From contig NZ_LMDM01000014.1 of the NCBI RefSeq assembly GCF_001425825.1, positions 1 through 64,000 of the forward strand: 64,000 bases of DNA, in the 5' to 3' direction. The notes under the pieces are model-generated. The model was given only the letters and a program-made list of their open reading frames with translations. It made no database searches and was not told the DNA's origin. Of the stretch, positions 30,134 through 38,585 are shown piece after piece (within the stretch, counting starts at the first letter, position 1; the number at the start of each line of letters is the position of its first letter). This DNA comes from Rhizobacter sp. Root1238 (lineage in GTDB: Bacteria; Pseudomonadota; Gammaproteobacteria; Burkholderiales; Burkholderiaceae_C). The position numbers were made by a program, and so were the translations under genes.

Positions 30134-30292
30134 GCTTCCGAGCTTCCGCCTTCCATCTGGCAACGGCGGAACTGAACCACGATCGACTCGCTTCCCGGTG
30201 TTTTGCAGGCGCCGGGCCCGTGGGAGCATCCCCGGACACGGTCTGTCGGGCGGCGCTGGGTTGCCGCCGACACCGTGGCTGGATCGTCGTCC

Positions 30293-32320
30293 ATGGTGTT
30301 GAAGTTTCGTCAACTGCTGCGTCGGGTTGCCTCTTCGGTCAAGTTCAAGATCGTTGCGGCTGGCGTGGTCACGGCCGTCGGTGCGACCGCGGTCACGACG
30401 CTCTTCATCCTGTCGATCACGCAGAGCCGATCGCGGCAGCAGTTGCTGCTGCAGAGCGCGAACGATGTGGAGCGCACCGCCAGCCTGCTGTCCAGCAAGC
30501 TCGAGCTGCTGCAGACGGCGCTGCAGGGTGTCGCCAGCCAAGTCCGGCCCGAGATGCTGCGCGACAGGCCGGCGCTGACGCAGTTCCTGATCGACAAGCC
30601 GTCCGCCGGTCTGCTGTTCGATTCCGTCTTCATCATGGGCCCGAACGGCGATCTGCTGGTACGCCTCGAGAAGGGCGTGCCAGGTTCGAACCTTCCGAAC
30701 CTCGCCGATCGCGAGTACTTCCAGCGGGTGATGCGCGAGAAGCTGCCGGTGGTGTCGCGGCCGCTGGTCAGCGCGATCAGCCATGCGGCTGTCCTGATCT
30801 TCGCGGTGCCGGTGCGGCAGGTCGATGGCCAGGTGACGGCTGTCGTCGGCGGAGCGCTGCGCCTGGACAAGACCGGGCTGCTGTCGTTCCTGCGCGATTC
30901 GTCCGGTCGCGACAACTCGCGCGATCTCGTGATCGACAAGAGCGGGCAAATCCTGGCGCATGCCGATCCCCAGCGCATCCTGCGCCATGCGCGCGAGGAA
31001 ACGGGCCTGAGCGCCGAGTTCGAACGCTGGGTGCTTGATGGCAGCACGATCCACGTGGAAGGCACGGCCTCGGTGGGCCACGGCTACCTCGTGGCGCTGG
31101 CCGGCGTGCCGGCTGCGGAATGGATGCTGGTCCACGTCACCCCTGAAACCGATGCGATGCAATCGCTGGCCGCCGCGCGCGACACGGCCTGGCGCGTCGG
31201 CGCGCTGGTGGGCCTGGCGGCGGCGTTGCTGGCGGGCTTGCTGGCGTGGTTCATCACGCGGCCCATCTCGCGCCTGCATGCGAGGGCGATGAGCCTGCTC
31301 GATGACGAGGCGCCGCTGCGCGGCGACTGGCCGCGGGGTGGTGGCGAGATCGGCGCGCTGTCGCGGGCCTTCCAGCATGTCGTCGAACAGCGTGCACTGC
31401 GAGGCCGCGAGACCCATCGCCTGCTGATGCAGCTGCAGGCCGTTCTGGATGCGGCCCATGCCGGCATCGCGCTCACGCGCGAAGGCCGGTTCGAACTGGT
31501 GAGCCGGCATTTCTGCGAACTCTTCGGACGCGACAAGGCCGAGCTGCTCGGCCACGACACACGGCAGGTCTTCACGAGCGAACTGCAGCACCAGCAACTG
31601 AGTCAGCAGTCACGCGACGCGTTGGGCGAGACGGGTGTGTTTGAGGCCGAAAGCCAGCTCGCGCGGCGCGATGGCAGTACGTTCTGGGGCCACATCCGCG
31701 GCAGCCTGTTGCCCGACAGCGATCGGCGCGCCGGCATCATCTGGATCGTCGAGGACGTGACCGAAGCGCATGAACGCAACGCGCGGCTGTCGTGGTCGGC
31801 GACGCATGACGCGATGACGCGCCTGGCCAACAGGGTGCAGTTCGAGAAGGTTCTCGACGAGGCGACGCTGGGAGCGGCCGAGCAGCCGTTCTGTGCGCTG
31901 TTCATCGACCTCGATCGCTTCAAGGCGGTCAACGACAGTGCAGGGCACGCGGCTGGCGACGCGCTGCTGCGCGACATCGCCGCACAACTGCAGGATCGCG
32001 TGCGCCCATCGGACACGGTGGCACGGCTGGGCGGCGACGAGTTCGCGGTGCTGCTGCCGCACTGCCCGGTCAAACGCGCGGTGGACCTGGCCGACACGTT
32101 GCGGGTGGCGATCAACGGCTATCGCCTGGCCTGGGAGGGTCGCAGCTTCAGCGTGGGGGCGAGCATCGGGCTCGTGCATGTCGGTGCCGGCTTCGCGAAT
32201 GCGACCGAGGTGCTGCGGGCCGCCGACATGGCCTGCTACGCCGCGAAGCGCGACGGACGCAACCAGGTGGTGGTCTATACCACTGCGATGACAGCGACTC
32301 GGAATCTGGTGGGAGTTTGA
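30293..32320 (+). CDS. Diguanylate cyclase with periplasmic sensor, HAMP, PAS and GGDEF domains
   Basis: 675 residues. A membrane helix lies near residues 20-42, then a dCache-like periplasmic domain to about 290, then a second helix (LVGLAAALLAGLLAWFIT) and a HAMP-like linker, a PAS/PAC domain around 385-500 and a C-terminal GGDEF domain. The active-site motif RLGGDEFAVLLPHC is intact, so it should make c-di-GMP from GTP. A retained RxxD inhibitory site just before it was not seen. Its start at 30293 is the first good ATG after the Bug gene. It is followed by the low-G+C island. Confidence 0.93.
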   Translation: MVLKFRQLLRRVASSVKFKIVAAGVVTAVGATAVTTLFILSITQSRSRQQLLLQSANDVERTASLLSSKLELLQTALQGVASQVRPEMLRDRPALTQFLIDKPSAGLLFDSVFIMGPNGDLLVRLEKGVPGSNLPNLADREYFQRVMREKLPVVSRPLVSAISHAAVLIFAVPVRQVDGQVTAVVGGALRLDKTGLLSFLRDSSGRDNSRDLVIDKSGQILAHADPQRILRHAREETGLSAEFERWVLDGSTIHVEGTASVGHGYLVALAGVPAAEWMLVHVTPETDAMQSLAAARDTAWRVGALVGLAAALLAGLLAWFITRPISRLHARAMSLLDDEAPLRGDWPRGGGEIGALSRAFQHVVEQRALRGRETHRLLMQLQAVLDAAHAGIALTREGRFELVSRHFCELFGRDKAELLGHDTRQVFTSELQHQQLSQQSRDALGETGVFEAESQLARRDGSTFWGHIRGSLLPDSDRRAGIIWIVEDVTEAHERNARLSWSATHDAMTRLANRVQFEKVLDEATLGAAEQPFCALFIDLDRFKAVNDSAGHAAGDALLRDIAAQLQDRVRPSDTVARLGGDEFAVLLPHCPVKRAVDLADTLRVAINGYRLAWEGRSFSVGASIGLVHVGAGFANATEVLRAADMACYAAKRDGRNQVVVYTTAMTATRNLVGV

Positions 32321-32612: not shown

Positions 32613-32771
32613 TCACCAAGTCTTGTTCGGCGTATCCGTACCGCCGCTGATCAGGCGCAGCAACTTGCTGTCGAGAACGACGGGCTCATTGCGAACGATC
32701 TTCGACTCGCTTTCGAAGCGGACCTTGTCGCTCGATTGCGTCGAAGGGATCAGTGCGATTGCTTGTTGCAT
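32613..32771 (-). CDS. 52-residue peptide with C-terminal Gly-Gly motif
   Basis: Too small for most gene finders. An AGGAG site lies six bases before the ATG at 32771; an ATG at 32798 lacks such a site. The product MQQAIALIPSTQSSDKVRFE begins a charged, non-membrane N-terminal part. The end is LLRLISGG (Gly43-Gly44) followed by the eight residues TDTPNKTW. The hydrophobic heptad before GG plus a short tail resembles the leader-core layout of peptides cut by C39-type transporters. No transporter or modifying enzyme is in this window. A lux-box dyad lies 78 bp upstream, and a LuxR regulator gene is adjacent on the same strand. Function unknown; a signal peptide or RiPP-like precursor is inference. 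Confidence 0.55.
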   Translation of the reverse strand: MQQAIALIPSTQSSDKVRFESESKIVRNEPVVLDSKLLRLISGGTDTPNKTW

Positions 32772-32848
32772 GAGGAGCTCCTGGCTTGCTGCGTGCACGC
32801 CAACTCGTGCACTGGCTCTATTGCAGCAGCCCCCCTCGTTTGCGGTAA

Positions 32849-32864
32849 CTGTCAGCTCTTACAG
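32849..32864. promoter_or_regulatory. lux-box-like dyad
   Basis: CTGTCAGCTCTTACAG is a 16-bp dyad of the form CTGT-N-AG-NN-CT-N-ACAG. Read from the other strand it is CTGTAAGAGCTGACAG, close to Burkholderia cep boxes. It lies between the luxR stop and the peptide gene, 78 bp before the peptide ATG, the expected place for activation by a LuxR-type regulator. Confidence 0.65.
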
Positions 32865-32899
32865 GTATCGCTGTCTGCCAAGTTCGGGCAGTGCGAAAG

Positions 32900-33595
32900 T
32901 CAACGAATCAGCCCCATGCGCAAGGCCTTCAGAACGGCCTGATGCTTGTTGACGCAACCCAGTTTGTGCATCGCGTTGTTCACATGCAGTACAGCAGTTC
33001 GCTCACTGATTCCGAGGATGTTGCCGACCTCCCACGCGGTCTTGCCGTCCATCGTCCAGCGCAGCGTTTCGACCTCGCGGGGCGTCAGCGGCGACGCGCC
33101 TGGCTCCTGCGCGGCGGGGATGAGAATGCGCGCAGCGCCCTCATAGGCGTGCACCGCGAACAGCTGCAAGTCGGCCACCATCCGCGTCAGTTCCTGGCGG
33201 TCATGTGGCAAGGCTTGGTCGCGTTCCACGCCCAGCACGAAGTGTTTCCCATCGGGCAGGTGAAGCGCCAGGCTGATGCCGTGGCTGTAGCCGAAGCGGG
33301 CCTGATGTTCCCACTTCTCGCCCTGGCCGCAGGCGGTGTACGTGTTCTGGTCCCAGATGATGGGAACGCTCTGCCGCTTGCAGTGCTGCATCACCGGATC
33401 CTTGCTGCCATTTCCCACGGCTTCGAAGGAATCGCGGTACGCGTCGGGGGCATTGTCGACCGCGATGAACTCCGGCTCGCCAAGGAAGTGATCGATGACG
33501 GTGATTGCGCTGACCCGTTCGAAGCCCAATTCCTGCGTAAACCGAACGATCTCACCGCGAAACTCGTCACGGCTTTGTGCCTGCAGCACCGACAT
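32900..33595 (-). CDS. LuxR-family regulator with autoinducer-binding domain (solo)
   Basis: 231 residues from the ATG at 33595, chosen for its AAGGTGG site; an ATG at 33637 would add 14. The N-terminal autoinducer-binding domain is followed by a GerE-type HTH (LTPREVETLRWTMDGKTAWEVGNILGISERTAVLHV). Mapping to TraR, D66, P67, W81 and G106 match conserved pocket residues D70, P71, W85 and G113, but W57 and Y61 are replaced by Y53 and F57. No luxI synthase is in the window, so it is a LuxR solo that may sense a non-canonical AHL or other ligand. It sits in the low-G+C island with a lux-box dyad, a peptide gene and a triple repeat upstream. Confidence 0.88.
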   Translation of the reverse strand: MSVLQAQSRDEFRGEIVRFTQELGFERVSAITVIDHFLGEPEFIAVDNAPDAYRDSFEAVGNGSKDPVMQHCKRQSVPIIWDQNTYTACGQGEKWEHQARFGYSHGISLALHLPDGKHFVLGVERDQALPHDRQELTRMVADLQLFAVHAYEGAARILIPAAQEPGASPLTPREVETLRWTMDGKTAWEVGNILGISERTAVLHVNNAMHKLGCVNKHQAVLKALRMGLIR

Positions 33596-33675
33596 GTACC
33601 CACCTTGCAGCATGGTCCTTCTTTCACTGGCAAGCATCTGTGCCCGGCGTCCGACCTTGCAAAACCTGAAAGGTC

Positions 33676-33716
33676 TTACAGCTGACAGAGATTACAGCTG
33701 GCAAGGTTTACAGCTA
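33676..33716. repeat. Three TTACAGCT repeats at exact 16-bp spacing
   Basis: TTACAGCTG starts at 33676 and 33692, and TTACAGCTA at 33708. They lie 81-121 bp upstream of the luxR start and 69-109 bp upstream of the divergent gene at 33785. A stretch CTTACAGCTGACAG here shares the AGCTGACAG half with the lux-box dyad at 32849-32864. The array may be a LuxR-binding region controlling one or both divergent genes. Confidence 0.55.
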
Positions 33717-33784: not shown

Positions 33785-34156
33785 ATGACGCCTGCATGGA
33801 CCATCTACGCCTGGCCACCCGTCAAGTGGCACGCGGACAGCACCCCGGATCTTCACTTCGTTCACCTGGGCACCCGGGTGCTGAATCCCGGCGATGAGGA
33901 CGGACCGAGCACCGGCCAGACGCTGTGGGGCGGCCCGCTCTCCGAAGGCGCGGCAGGCGTGGCGTGGGACTGGGTGCAGCTGGAGCAAGGCATCGTCGCG
34001 ATGGCCGACCCGCTCGGTCTGATCACCAACCTGCAGCTGCTGGGTGCCGGCGGCGAGAAGCTCACCGGCATGGAAGTGGCACTGCGGCTCAACGAGATCG
34101 TGCACACGCTGCCGTGGCAATCGGAAGTTCAACGCGCGCTGGACCGCGCGGCCTGA
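33785..34156 (+). CDS. Hypothetical protein
   Basis: 123 residues, start MTPAWTIYAWPPVKW. The composition is soluble and acidic with no signal peptide or recognisable catalytic motif. The middle part, LSEGAAGVAWDWVQLEQGIVAMADPLGLITNLQLL, suggests a small beta-rich cytoplasmic domain. Codon use returns to the G+C-rich neighbours' pattern, in contrast to the adjoining luxR island. It is divergent from luxR and shares the TTACAGCT repeat region upstream. Homology is not recognised; function unknown. Confidence 0.6.
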   Translation: MTPAWTIYAWPPVKWHADSTPDLHFVHLGTRVLNPGDEDGPSTGQTLWGGPLSEGAAGVAWDWVQLEQGIVAMADPLGLITNLQLLGAGGEKLTGMEVALRLNEIVHTLPWQSEVQRALDRAA

Positions 34157-34769: not shown

Positions 34770-35938
34770 TCATCTAACCGCCGCGGCGCGCAGGTGCCGT
34801 GCGACGAACACGATGCTCACCACCGTCAGCACGGTGCAGACGCCCAGCGAGATCGCGATCGGCTGCATCGCCAGCGCCTCGCCCTTCAGCACGCGCGTCA
34901 TCAGCGTGAACTGCGCGAGGCCCGGCACCCACGCATGCCACCACGCCTCGCCGCCCTGGTTGAACAGGGTCATCAGCGGCAGCAGCGAAGCGGCCAGCAC
35001 CACCACCGTGCTGTTCGCCTGCGCTTCCTTGAAGGTCTTGCAGCGGATCGCCACCGCCATCAGCAGCGCCGACAGCGCCGCGGCCAGCGGCAGCAGCAGC
35101 GCGACGAACCGCAGCGCCTCGACCCAGCCGAACTGGAACATCGCCTGCAGCGTGTCGCTGCGCAGCAGCCACTGTGCCGGCAGGAAGCTCAGGCAGCACA
35201 GCACCGCGATCAGCATCGCGAGCGCGAACACCGCGCCCCATTTGCCGCCGACCACCGCCCAGCGCGGCGCCGGGTTGGCCAGCAGCGGCTCCAGCGACCC
35301 GCGCTCGCGCTCGCCGGCCGTGGTGTCCAGCGCGGCATTCAGCGCGCCGTAGACCACGGCCATGATCACGAAGAACGGCAGCATGCCGGTCAGCTGGGCG
35401 GCGCGGCCTTGCGCACTCGCGAGGTCGTGCTCTTCCACCTGCATCGGCTCCAGCAACTGCGGCGACACGCCGCGCAGCGCCAGGCTCAGCGCACCGCGCT
35501 CGCGCGCGTACGCCGCCAGCAGCCGTTGCACCCGGCCGGCGCCGGCCTCCGCCGCCTTGTTGCCGGTGTCGGAGATGACCTGCAGCACCGGCTGCTCGCC
35601 GCGCACGAGTGCGGCCTCGAAGCCGGCGGGGATCACCAGCACCGGGTCGCCGAGCTTCTGTGCCCGCAGCTTCGCTTCGTAGTCGGCCGGTGCGGGGGTC
35701 ACGACATAGCTCTGCCGCTCGATGAAGTTGCGCAGCGCCGGCGCATGCTCGATGCCCGCGACGACGACCTCGCGCTTCTCGGCCTGGGCCTCCAAGGTCG
35801 CGATCAGGCCCGACAGCGCGACCAGCACCAGTGGCCCCAGCAGCACGCTGGAGATCAGCACGACGATCAGCGTGCGCCGGTCGCGCAACGCGTCGGCCAG
35901 CTCCTTGCGCAGCACGATCGACAGCAACGAGAGGCCGC

Positions 35939-35942
<4 letters not shown>
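34770..35942 (-). CDS. ABC-2-type transporter permease (NatB-like)
   Basis: 390 residues. The N-terminal helix (LIVVLISSVLLGPLVLVALSG) is followed by a large extracytoplasmic loop and five hydrophobic segments in the C-terminal half, as in NatB-type permeases. The segment DTTAGERERGSLEPLLANPAPR is the conserved cytoplasmic coupling motif of this family. The ATG at 35942 overlaps the ATPase stop codon. It should form the membrane part of an export system with the ATPase at 35939-36718. The substrate is unknown. Confidence 0.9.
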
Positions 35943-36714
<772 letters not shown>

Positions 36715-36718
<4 letters not shown>

Positions 36719-38220
36719 GTCGGCGCTCCGGGTTGCAGCGGCACGAAGGCCGGCGGGCGCGGCACCGCGACCAGGCAGGTCGTGTCGAGCGCCAGCGCCG
36801 CGGCATCGTCGGCCGCATCGATGAAGCGCTGGATCAGGTCGCGCGCGCAGCCGACGCCCATCACGCCATGCCCCGCGTTCGGCACCACCACCGAGCGCGC
36901 CAGCGCCCCGAGCGCACGCGCGACGCGGTCGGCATGGCGCGGCGGCGTGATCGGGTCCAGCCCGCCGCTCAACAGCAGCACCGGTGTCGTGCTGGTCGAC
37001 AGGCGATAGAAAGCGTCGGGCACTGCGCCGCGCGGCCAGTCGGTGCAGACGCGTGCGTACAGCGCGCCCAGCGAGCGGCCGAAATCGGCCCCCGGCGGGT
37101 CGGTCGCCTGCGCCATCCGCGGTGCGTCTTCCGCGCAGACGACGCTGAAGTGCATGCCCATCGCGAGCCCCATGCCCTTGCGCGCGCCCAGCAATCCGCC
37201 GAGCCCGACGAGGCCCTCGAAACGGCCCTGCGCCGCATCGTGCAGCGCGGTCGGCAGCGCGGCGGCGATCCACGGCGCGTACAGCGTGCCGCGCACCGCG
37301 CCCAGCACCGTCTCGCGCGTCAGCGTGAAACGCTCGATGCGCCCGCTCAGCGGGTGCGCGGTGCTGACCTCACGCGGCAGGCCGGCGAGCAGCGCCTTCC
37401 AGTCGGCGCGCAGCGTCGGGTGCGCGCGCGTGCAGGCGGCCTCGGCTTCGCAGGCGGCCAGCAGCGCGTCGAACGCCTGCTGGCCGTCGGTCGAGAAGCT
37501 GACCGGCAGCACCATGTCCGGCGGCGCGACACCGTCGAGCACGCTGCGCCGCACGCGATCCGGGAACTGCCGCTGGTACTCCAGCGCGGCCCGCGTGCCG
37601 TACGACGCGCCGACCAGGTCGATGCGTGGAGCGCCCAGGCGCGCCCGCACCGCGTCGAGGTCCTGCATCGCGAGCGTCGTCGTGAAGAAGCCGAGGTCGG
37701 CCGGCACGGCGAGCGGGGCGCGTGCGGCCAGGCGGTTGCGGCAGGCGGCCATGCGGGCGAACTGCCGGGCTGGGTCGGCCTCGTCGGCCAGCGTCTCGCG
37801 GCCGCCGTCGGGCGCGTTCTCCGGTCCGTCGTCGCAGGCGAGCGGCGCCGAGCGGCCGGTGCCGCGCTGGTCGACGAACACGATGTCGCGCCGGTTGTTC
37901 AGGCGCTGGAACAGCGGCATCACGCTGCCGGCCAGCGAGATCGCGCTCTGGCCCGGCCCGCCGGCCAGCAGGAACACCGGGTCGGGCAGCTTGCGGCGAG
38001 CCATTGCCGGCACGACGACATAGTGCACGTCGATCTGCGGCCCCGCCGGCCGGGCCGGGTCGAGCGGGCGTCGCAGCTGGCCGCACAGCACCTCGTTGCG
38101 CAGGCCGGCGACGCGGCAGGGCGTGGGCGCATCGTCGGCGGCGCGTGCCGGCACGGCCATGCCACCGAGCCCCGCGGCCAGCACGGCGCCCATCATCGCG
38201 GCGAGCGGCCCGCGCGTCAT
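36715..38220 (-). CDS. Secreted TAP-like alpha/beta hydrolase (peptidase)
   Basis: 501 residues from the ATG at 38220. It has a signal peptide (MMGAVLAAGLGGMAVPARA). The oxyanion region is FLLAGGPGQSA, the nucleophile is in VGASYGTRAALEY, the acid in GGLDPITPP and the histidine in NAGHGVMG. This matches the tripeptidyl aminopeptidase/proline iminopeptidase-like S33 family, which cleaves residues from peptides. It is exported and probably periplasmic. It is the second gene of an ATGA-coupled operon with a glutaredoxin-like protein and an ABC exporter. Confidence 0.88.
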
Positions 38221-38585
38221 TCGCCCAGCAACCGCTTCAGTTCGCCGCTGGCGACCAGCCGCCGCACGTCGTCGTTGCCGCCGACCAGCGTGCCCTTGAC
38301 GAAGACCATCGGGAACGTCGGCCAGCCGGTCCACATCTTCAGCGCCGCGCGCGGGCGCCACTGGCTCAGGTAGCTGCCGAACTTGAGGTAGTGGTGCGCG
38401 ACGCCGGCACCCTCTAGCGCCCGGCGGACGCGGCGGCAGTGCGGGTTCTGCGCCATGCCGACCACCAGCACCGGGTTCGACGCGGCCGCGGCCTGCACGT
38501 TGTGGACGATGTCCGCATGCAGCGTGGCGACCTTGTCGCGGATCGCCGGGTGCAATCGGGATTCTTCAAGGACTTGGCGCGGCAT
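38217..38585 (-). CDS. Glutaredoxin-like protein lacking the first active-site Cys
   Basis: 122 residues from the ATG at 38585. The fold segments are VLVVGMAQNPHCRRVRRALEG and WPTFPMVFVKGTLVGGNDDV, equivalent to the CPYC/CGFS loop and the cis-Pro/GG motif of glutaredoxins. The usual first cysteine is Asn47 and only Cys50 remains (N-P-H-C). Since the N-terminal cysteine is normally the nucleophile, ordinary glutaredoxin activity is unlikely; it could bind glutathione or Fe-S, or act differently. It is the first gene of the four-gene operon ending at 34770. Confidence 0.8.
   Translation of the reverse strand: MPRQVLEESRLHPAIRDKVATLHADIVHNVQAAAASNPVLVVGMAQNPHCRRVRRALEGAGVAHHYLKFGSYLSQWRPRAALKMWTGWPTFPMVFVKGTLVGGNDDVRRLVASGELKRLLGE

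Follow-up and report, generated by a model that had tools for sequence, protein, structure and literature searches.

The luxR Locus and Its Small Downstream Gene

The window, a stretch of 64,000 nucleotides from Rhizobacter sp. Root1238, carries on its reverse strand a gene for a LuxR-type regulator, followed by a short reading frame with the translation MQQAIALIPSTQSSDKVRFESESKIVRNEPVVLDSKLLRLISGGTDTPNKTW (Table 1). A sequence-only reading of the window had described this 52-codon gene and its AGGAG site, both of which are present as claimed, and had seen a leader-core layout in the product, LLRLISGG followed by TDTPNKTW, which can be read in the translation and recurs as a Gly-Gly leader in 73 of the 79 related loci of the best-80-of-220 set described below. 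Most relatives likewise have a GGAG-type site ahead of the peptide gene. The luxR start is more likely at 33613, since orthologues mostly begin with MLQ. The sequence-only reading had overlooked the three contiguous boxes ahead of luxR and the conserved divergent gene.

Table 1. Features of the luxR-peptide locus, with positions in the window.
Feature	Position	Strand	Remarks
dCache-PAS-GGDEF diguanylate cyclase	30203..32320	+	Convergent; outside the conserved unit
Peptide precursor gene	32613..32771	-	52 codons plus stop; Gly-Gly leader and core
Core TDTPNKTW	32616-32639	-	Follows the leader end LLRLISGG
Gly-Gly leader	32640-32771	-	Residues 1-44 of the precursor
Ribosome-binding site AGGAG	32778..32782	-	6 nt ahead of the peptide ATG
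GTGCAC...GTGCAC inverted repeat, 5' untranslated region	32793..32812	-	Between the -10-like element and the ribosome-binding site
-10-like element CTGCTGCAAT	32820..32829	-	19 nt past the box
LuxR box CTGTAAGAGCTGACAG before the peptide gene	32849..32864	-	77 nt ahead of the ATG
LuxR-type receptor/regulator	32900..33637	-	Autoind_bind 7.5e-20, GerE 1.9e-15
Three contiguous 16-bp boxes, interval between luxR and the divergent gene	33666-33681, 33682-33697, 33698-33713	-	
Divergent gene, distant RsaM-like (DUF4902)	33785..34156	+	Homologue upstream of luxR on the opposite strand in 80/80 loci (best of 220)

A BLAST search with the peptide alone found it in only three of 100 genomes, our own included, with the two relatives at 94% and 67% identity, so that counterparts elsewhere had to be sought through LuxR synteny. 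No match was returned for the peptide in a Pfam search, and the peptides of 19 relatives gave only chance-level matches (one Pfam and nine NCBIfam). Among the three closest genomes, the three pairwise dN/dS values are about 0.18, 0.26, and 0.37, indicating purifying selection on the peptide; absence of frame conservation, which had been named in advance as refuting the peptide gene, is thus not what is seen. The locus had also been placed in a low-G+C island. The G+C content does dip to 61-63% in a window that is mostly near 70%, but other stretches of the window are equally low, and because LuxR was found in every one of the 11 genus genomes that were searched, the dip is no evidence of foreign DNA.

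The regulator had been taken for a LuxR without a LuxI partner, and this holds: both LuxR domains are matched, and a profile search of the whole genome for LuxI (PF00765) gave no match. Among the matches listed, the closest LuxR on a named contig is that of Rhizobacter sp. OV335 (91% identity). PF00765 scores above the cut-off in one of the 11 genus genomes and is absent from 14 of the 16 genomes that carry a close LuxR; G007 and G023 have both a close LuxR and LuxI. In two assemblies (L019 and L109) a stop lies inside the LuxR frame, through either error or decay.

The divergent gene belongs to a family in which six of seven members match PF16245 (best 4.9e-5), the protein encoded here doing so only weakly (14.5 bits, cut-off 25), and its best solved relative is BCAM1869 (4o2h, E 0.016). 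An AlphaFold model of this RsaM-like protein was too poor to use (pLDDT 45) and was set aside. An arrangement of rsaM divergent from a luxR solo has been described as "type 6" in Pelomonas, Kinneretia, Albitalea, Xenophilus, and Thauera (PMC10710839); the word "peptide" does not occur in the portion of that review available to us. Further upstream of the locus, on the reverse strand, lie an ABC-2 permease and a TAP-like alpha/beta hydrolase, possibly an aminopeptidase (34770-38226), with homologues in 59 and 52, respectively, of the best 80 of 220 LuxR loci. These could process or move peptides, or could reflect mere synteny. No proline iminopeptidase flanks luxR: luxR lies between the RsaM-like gene and the peptide gene, and the TAP-like hydrolase is about 3 kb away.

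LuxR Boxes and Promoter Geometry

The 16-bp dyad that had been noted before the peptide gene is indeed there. The pattern CTGTMANNNNTGNCAG has six matches at five places in the 6.5-Mb genome, three of them at the locus, compared with two for the reversed control pattern; together with the purifying selection on the peptide, these counts argue that neither the boxes nor the small reading frame arose by chance. Of the best 80 of 220 LuxR loci, 79 have a box downstream of LuxR that differs from CTGTAAGAGYTGACAG at no more than three positions, and in 44 the box is exact; only 2 of 2534 control slices have one. The sole locus without a box (L048) has only 137 nt of downstream sequence. Upstream of LuxR, within up to 470 nt, 77 of these 80 loci contain a box with at most four mismatches; among control slices, which were 250 nt long, 34 of 2534 do.

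The spacing is also conserved. In the 78 loci of the best-80-of-220 set for which it was determined, the distance from the end of the box to the start codon is 66-93 nt (median 77.5), and in 51 of the 78 the element CTG[CA]TN[CA]AAT stands exactly 19 nt past the box. On sequence alone, we take this spacing to reflect a fixed activator-promoter geometry. A hairpin with exact arms of at least 6 nt occurs in the 5' leader of 36 of the 78 loci in the same set, vs. 45 of 390 mononucleotide shuffles, and perhaps the inverted repeat serves RNA-level control.

Outside the locus, there is little sign of a wider regulon. At up to two mismatches, six box-like sites are found in the genome, including the three in the locus, compared with 11 for the reversed control. 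A site common to three genomes (C45:220504 in ours) was dropped, as by eye it seems to fall within type VI secretion genes. In our genome and two closely related ones (G005 and G008), CTGCAAGAGTTGTCAG or a near variant lies about 102-103 nt ahead of a gene for a secreted S8 subtilase, which is a possible quorum-regulated protease, although only a lead, given that box-like sites outside the locus do not exceed the control. The subtilase gene (L169:4178-6129; about 254177-256128 on our contig C1) has a weak PPC-domain match.

Conservation of the LuxR-Peptide Pair

Relatives were compared at the best 80 of 220 LuxR places, all on named contigs and 79 of them with downstream sequence, which span Rhizobacter, Piscinibacter, Methylibium, Rubrivivax, Roseateles, Mitsuaria, Paucibacter, Ideonella, Leptothrix, and others. 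A short reading frame ending in tryptophan lies downstream of LuxR in all 21 close orthologues (L002-L022), and in the best-80-of-220 set a short peptide gene follows LuxR at all 79 loci with sequence there. The luxR-peptide pair that was to be sought in other Burkholderiales is therefore present throughout this set, although the count is not blind, as the choice of reading frame scored a tryptophan end and a Gly-Gly leader, and the starts of 13 precursors were set by hand. An automated reading-frame pattern test was positive at 74 of the 79 close loci and 17 of 20 more distant ones; among the controls, dinucleotide shuffles were positive in 45 of 990 cases and other real windows in 75 of 3284. 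Since the pattern was derived from the same data, the test sets these loci apart from controls but is not independent.

The precursors in the best-80-of-220 set share a recognizable core. A P-x3-4-W core, typically xPxxxW and in our genome TPNKTW, is found in 74 of 79, and the other five (L060, L075, L095, L108, and L110) have LPRVS-like cores instead. LPRVS occurs twice per precursor in L060, L095, and L110, at the protein end without a tryptophan, and the variants in L075 and L108 are LPRVG and LPRAG. Repeats of the core occur in 35 of the 79 precursors, and in 29 of these 35 every copy is the same, as in L050 (GPNGGW five times) and L085 (LPRGTW four times), and such repeated identical cores suggest proteolytic release. 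In four genomes (G001, G002, G003, and G009; L011-L014 and L029-L031), two to four diverged luxR paralogues form tandem arrays, with a single peptide gene seen after the last paralogue, a possible multi-receptor or decoy arrangement.

Linkage of the Gly-Gly Leader to a C39 Exporter

The genes past the peptide gene point to secretion. Of the 73 loci in the best-80-of-220 set whose precursor has a Gly-Gly leader, 70 have an HlyD-like adaptor after the peptide gene, and none of the six leaderless loci has one there (Fisher p = 3e-7). A C39-peptidase ABC transporter follows the peptide gene at 69 of 79 loci; the contig end is too near to judge the exporter at L078. Because adaptor and exporter track the Gly-Gly leader, secretion is implied in most close members. 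Leaderless loci fall in three places on a FastTree tree (L057; L081; L087/L091/L093/L113), so that the joint absence of leader and exporter is probably not one inherited event, although the nodes that part L081 from the last group have supports of only 0.898 and 0.704. The adaptor and exporter are the only conserved genes that we recognized past the peptide gene, and no modification enzyme was recognized there in a search that was not exhaustive and that clustered reading frames among which many were spurious. As this neighbor clustering mixed in spurious antisense frames, only separately checked genes are used here.

The exporter is not always local. Among the 16 genomes with a close LuxR, 12 have C39 genes about 1.7 kb past LuxR, and those without one nearby are our own genome, G005, G008, and G021, the last having a leaderless peptide and no C39 match anywhere in the genome. 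In our genome and the two closest to it, the Gly-Gly leader is retained, but a diguanylate cyclase occupies the usual place of the exporter, and at L103 a leader is likewise present and an adjacent exporter absent. Within the best 80 of 220 loci, a dCache-PAS-GGDEF cyclase at the exporter place is seen only at L034 and L035. Our genome has four C39 matches, all away from the locus, with C39 exporters on contigs C12 and C45, and two distant adaptor/C39 pairs that are 43%/55% and 36%/52% identical to the pair at L074. By inference from this similarity, these pairs could act in trans for the peptide.

The Receptor Pocket and Its Co-variation with the Core

The profile of the LuxR family aligns end to end with LasR (2.5e-33), and a predicted model of the protein encoded here (pLDDT 86) matches QscR, SdiA, RhlR, and LasR. 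Within the best 80 of 220 LuxR proteins, the equivalents of LasR D73, P74, W88, and Y93 are invariant (80/80), 76 of the 80 have Y or F in the place of W60, and the Y64 equivalent is in most cases F, Y, M, L, I, or A. The lactone-contact set W60, Y64, D73, and W88 (LasR numbering) is thus not kept entire, the W60 and Y64 equivalents being changed or variable.

Co-variation between core and receptor was tested on 73 rows, our own genome included, after L048 (contig end), L109 (stop in LuxR), and six loci whose cores are not 6-mers ending in tryptophan (L060, L075, L081, L095, L108, and L110) had been dropped; 64 loci remain when the RsaM-like gene and the adaptor are also required. At these 64 loci, core distance is correlated with ligand-domain distance (r = 0.354, permutation p = 0.001) once the distances of the DNA-binding domain, the RsaM-like gene, and the adaptor are accounted for. 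The corresponding values for the DNA-binding domain, the RsaM-like gene, and the adaptor, each given the others, reveal no association (0.03, -0.03, and -0.09).

The ligand domain has 108 variable positions, 15 of which align with LasR pocket residues at an offset of LasR + 7, taken from the alignment of the family profile with LasR. The pocket residues come from the available parts of PMC8472786 and PMC12061423, and many of them are docking contacts. Pocket positions make up six of the ten sites most associated with the core (122, 134, 108, 77, 71, and 45; p = 4e-4, 64 loci), and none of 60 pseudo-trait sets from neighboring genes reaches six pocket sites (mean 1.55, maximum 5). In a first ranking on the 73 rows, seven of the later pocket list were in the top ten, and the list was compiled only after that ranking had been seen. 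Phylogeny was controlled by distances and pseudo-traits, without a full phylogenetic model. With these reservations, the peptide gene and the binding pocket of the receptor appear, as far as alignments can indicate, to have evolved together.

Distant LuxR Paralogues

At E <= 1e-70, the LuxR profile has matches in 102 of the 399 genomes of the family, from 38 of its 141 genera. From the weaker part of the profile list, we hand-picked 20 distant paralogues (38.6-46.8% identity), several of which are close kin. Inspection by eye finds a reading frame of 9-28 residues beginning 92-208 nt downstream of LuxR at 19 of these 20 loci, and no visible peptide gene at the other (L229). The cores resemble LPRxGG, FPRVGF, or LPRxGW, and examples of precursors are MICLPRVGW, MSLFDLLLEALGLPRNGG, and MTQSHSIAPAFPRVGF. 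Several of the loci carry other dyads, such as CTAGAAGACTTGCTAG and CTACAAGGTTTTGTAG. The differing 16-bp dyads and short peptide genes of L214-L233 suggest that there may be several separate LuxR-peptide systems.

No adaptor or exporter homologue was found within 1.0-1.5 kb downstream of the 20 distant LuxR genes. The tree analysis coded these loci as lacking an exporter, which is supported only for that distance; on this basis it would seem, by inference, that the leader and exporter were gained in one clade and then lost several times. Three LuxR proteins of 28-30% identity (L025-L027) have no tryptophan-terminal peptide under the short-ORF filter, a plasmid collection gave no match at E 1e-25, and a phage collection yielded only LuxR proteins that are 27-28% identical.

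Precursors range from nine residues (MICLPRVGW) to five-core repeat arrays. We lean, without being firmly committed, toward a deep Gram-negative quorum-sensing family in which LuxR-fold receptors read ribosomal peptides of the xPxxxW or [LF]PRxG type in the lactone pocket, each lineage having its own cores and the leader and exporter being dispensable.

A Proposed Peptide-Signal Circuit and Its Alternatives

We propose that the locus is a LuxR quorum-sensing circuit with a dedicated peptide-pheromone gene in place of LuxI, a reading to which we give a probability of roughly 0.75 and in which binding, secretion, and uptake are inferred. The linked C39 exporter would cut off the leader and export the core; in Rhizobacter sp. 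Root1238 this exporter is presumed to be encoded elsewhere in the genome, since none adjoins the peptide gene. Either the whole core or a shorter part, for instance PNKTW, might then re-enter cells and bind the LuxR pocket, and peptide-bound LuxR would turn on the peptide gene, giving positive feedback, as well as luxR and probably other genes. By analogy with RsaM in acyl-homoserine-lactone systems, the RsaM-like protein would probably restrain the loop. Against this circuit, there are no data on expression, secretion, or binding, and a cytoplasmic LuxR would need the peptide inside the cell. Also counting against it are the lack of an exporter beside the peptide gene in our genome and its two closest relatives, the LuxI that G007 and G023 carry along with this LuxR, the five of 79 precursors whose core lacks tryptophan, the absence of a visible peptide at L229 and, under the short-ORF filter, at L025-L027, and the box-like sites outside the locus, which are no commoner than the control. 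The sequence-only reading had suggested a LuxR-controlled peptide, possibly a signal or a RiPP-like precursor. Its control by LuxR and its nature as a signal or leader/core precursor are supported by the conserved pairing, box, spacing, exporter linkage, repeated cores, and co-variation, while the RiPP part of the suggestion is unnecessary, our non-exhaustive search having recognized no modification enzyme nearby.

It is possible that the regulator is an ordinary LuxR solo that senses acyl-homoserine lactones or another small molecule, and that the peptide, bacteriocin-like or a RiPP, is merely its output. The fold shared with QscR, SdiA, RhlR, and LasR and the four residues invariant in all of the best 80 of 220 proteins would fit such a regulator, and Gly-Gly leaders with C39 exporters are common among bacteriocins. 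We nevertheless consider this unlikely, because the residues in place of W60 and Y64 have changed or vary, LuxI is missing from most genomes with a close LuxR (14/16), and the core co-varies with the ligand domain and its pocket positions, which is not expected of a mere output; precursors without a leader and as short as the nine-residue MICLPRVGW are also unlike bacteriocins.

We give only slight credence to another possibility, that the peptide binds LuxR within the producer cell as a non-secreted co-activator or anti-activator, without any cell-to-cell signaling. Adaptor and exporter track the Gly-Gly leader, implying secretion in most close members (the leaderless ones excepted), and the repeated identical cores suggest proteolytic release, both at odds with a peptide that stays inside; in its favor are the six of 79 close loci (best-80-of-220 set) that lack leader and adjacent exporter, the 20 distant loci with no adaptor or exporter homologue within 1.0-1.5 kb downstream, and the missing local exporter in our own genome. 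That the small gene is a chance reading frame might be supposed from its shortness and from the three genomes in 100, our own included, in which BLAST finds the peptide. This idea can be given virtually no weight, as sequence comparisons already contradict it: the frame is under purifying selection, has a ribosome-binding site ahead of its ATG, and has syntenic counterparts at 79 of 79 loci (best-80-of-220 set, not blind), with the shuffle controls pointing the same way.

Relation to Known Systems and Implications

The proposed peptide-signal circuit shares features with several known systems. As in acyl-homoserine-lactone LuxI/LuxR systems, there is a LuxR with Autoind_bind and GerE domains, a 16-bp dyad box, and a divergent RsaM-like gene, but LuxI is absent, a peptide gene follows luxR, and the lactone-contact positions are changed. 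The Gly-Gly leader and, in most loci, the linked adaptor and C39 transporter resemble double-glycine/C39 peptide systems. The usual partner of double-glycine peptides is a membrane histidine kinase, which the receptor proposed here is not; the cores here are short (xPxxxW), and some loci have neither leader nor exporter. Receptors of the RRNPP type are TPR-fold proteins, whereas the receptor here has a LuxR fold and its host is Gram-negative. As far as the accessible part of the source goes, RRNPP systems of Gram-positive bacteria are alike in having a small propeptide gene adjoining the gene of an intracellular receptor (PMC10075063).

Among LuxR solos, OryR and PipR, which lack a lactone response, resemble what is proposed for the receptor here. 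In the available portions of the sources, PipR is reported to answer peptide-like inducers (PMC4981722), and its inducer is given as the ethanolamine derivative HEHEAA (PMC10134790). PipR thus answers outside compounds, and it lies beside peptidase genes without a paired peptide gene being described in those portions, whereas here the peptide gene is paired with luxR. A 2023 review of LuxR solos and a 2026 review of quorum sensing, in the parts available, contain no LuxR with its own peptide gene. Nor did searches of an open-licence library yield any LuxR paired in this way; subscription journals and preprints were outside the scope, and a prior description is not excluded.

Textbooks assign acyl-homoserine lactones to the LuxR receptors of Gram-negative bacteria and peptides to Gram-positive bacteria, and a gene-encoded peptide partner for LuxR would break this division. 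In these Burkholderiales the signal is probably a peptide with a gene of its own, whereas their relatives rely on one derived from fatty acids. If true, this would supply a ligand for a common group of luxR solos (that of the 102 genomes and 38 genera with a profile match), would explain the RsaM-like gene beside a luxR without luxI, and would offer a receptor-signal pair for which sequence reveals the specificity. Should the deep LuxR-peptide family also prove real, receptor-signal pairs would be predictable from sequence across dozens of genera.
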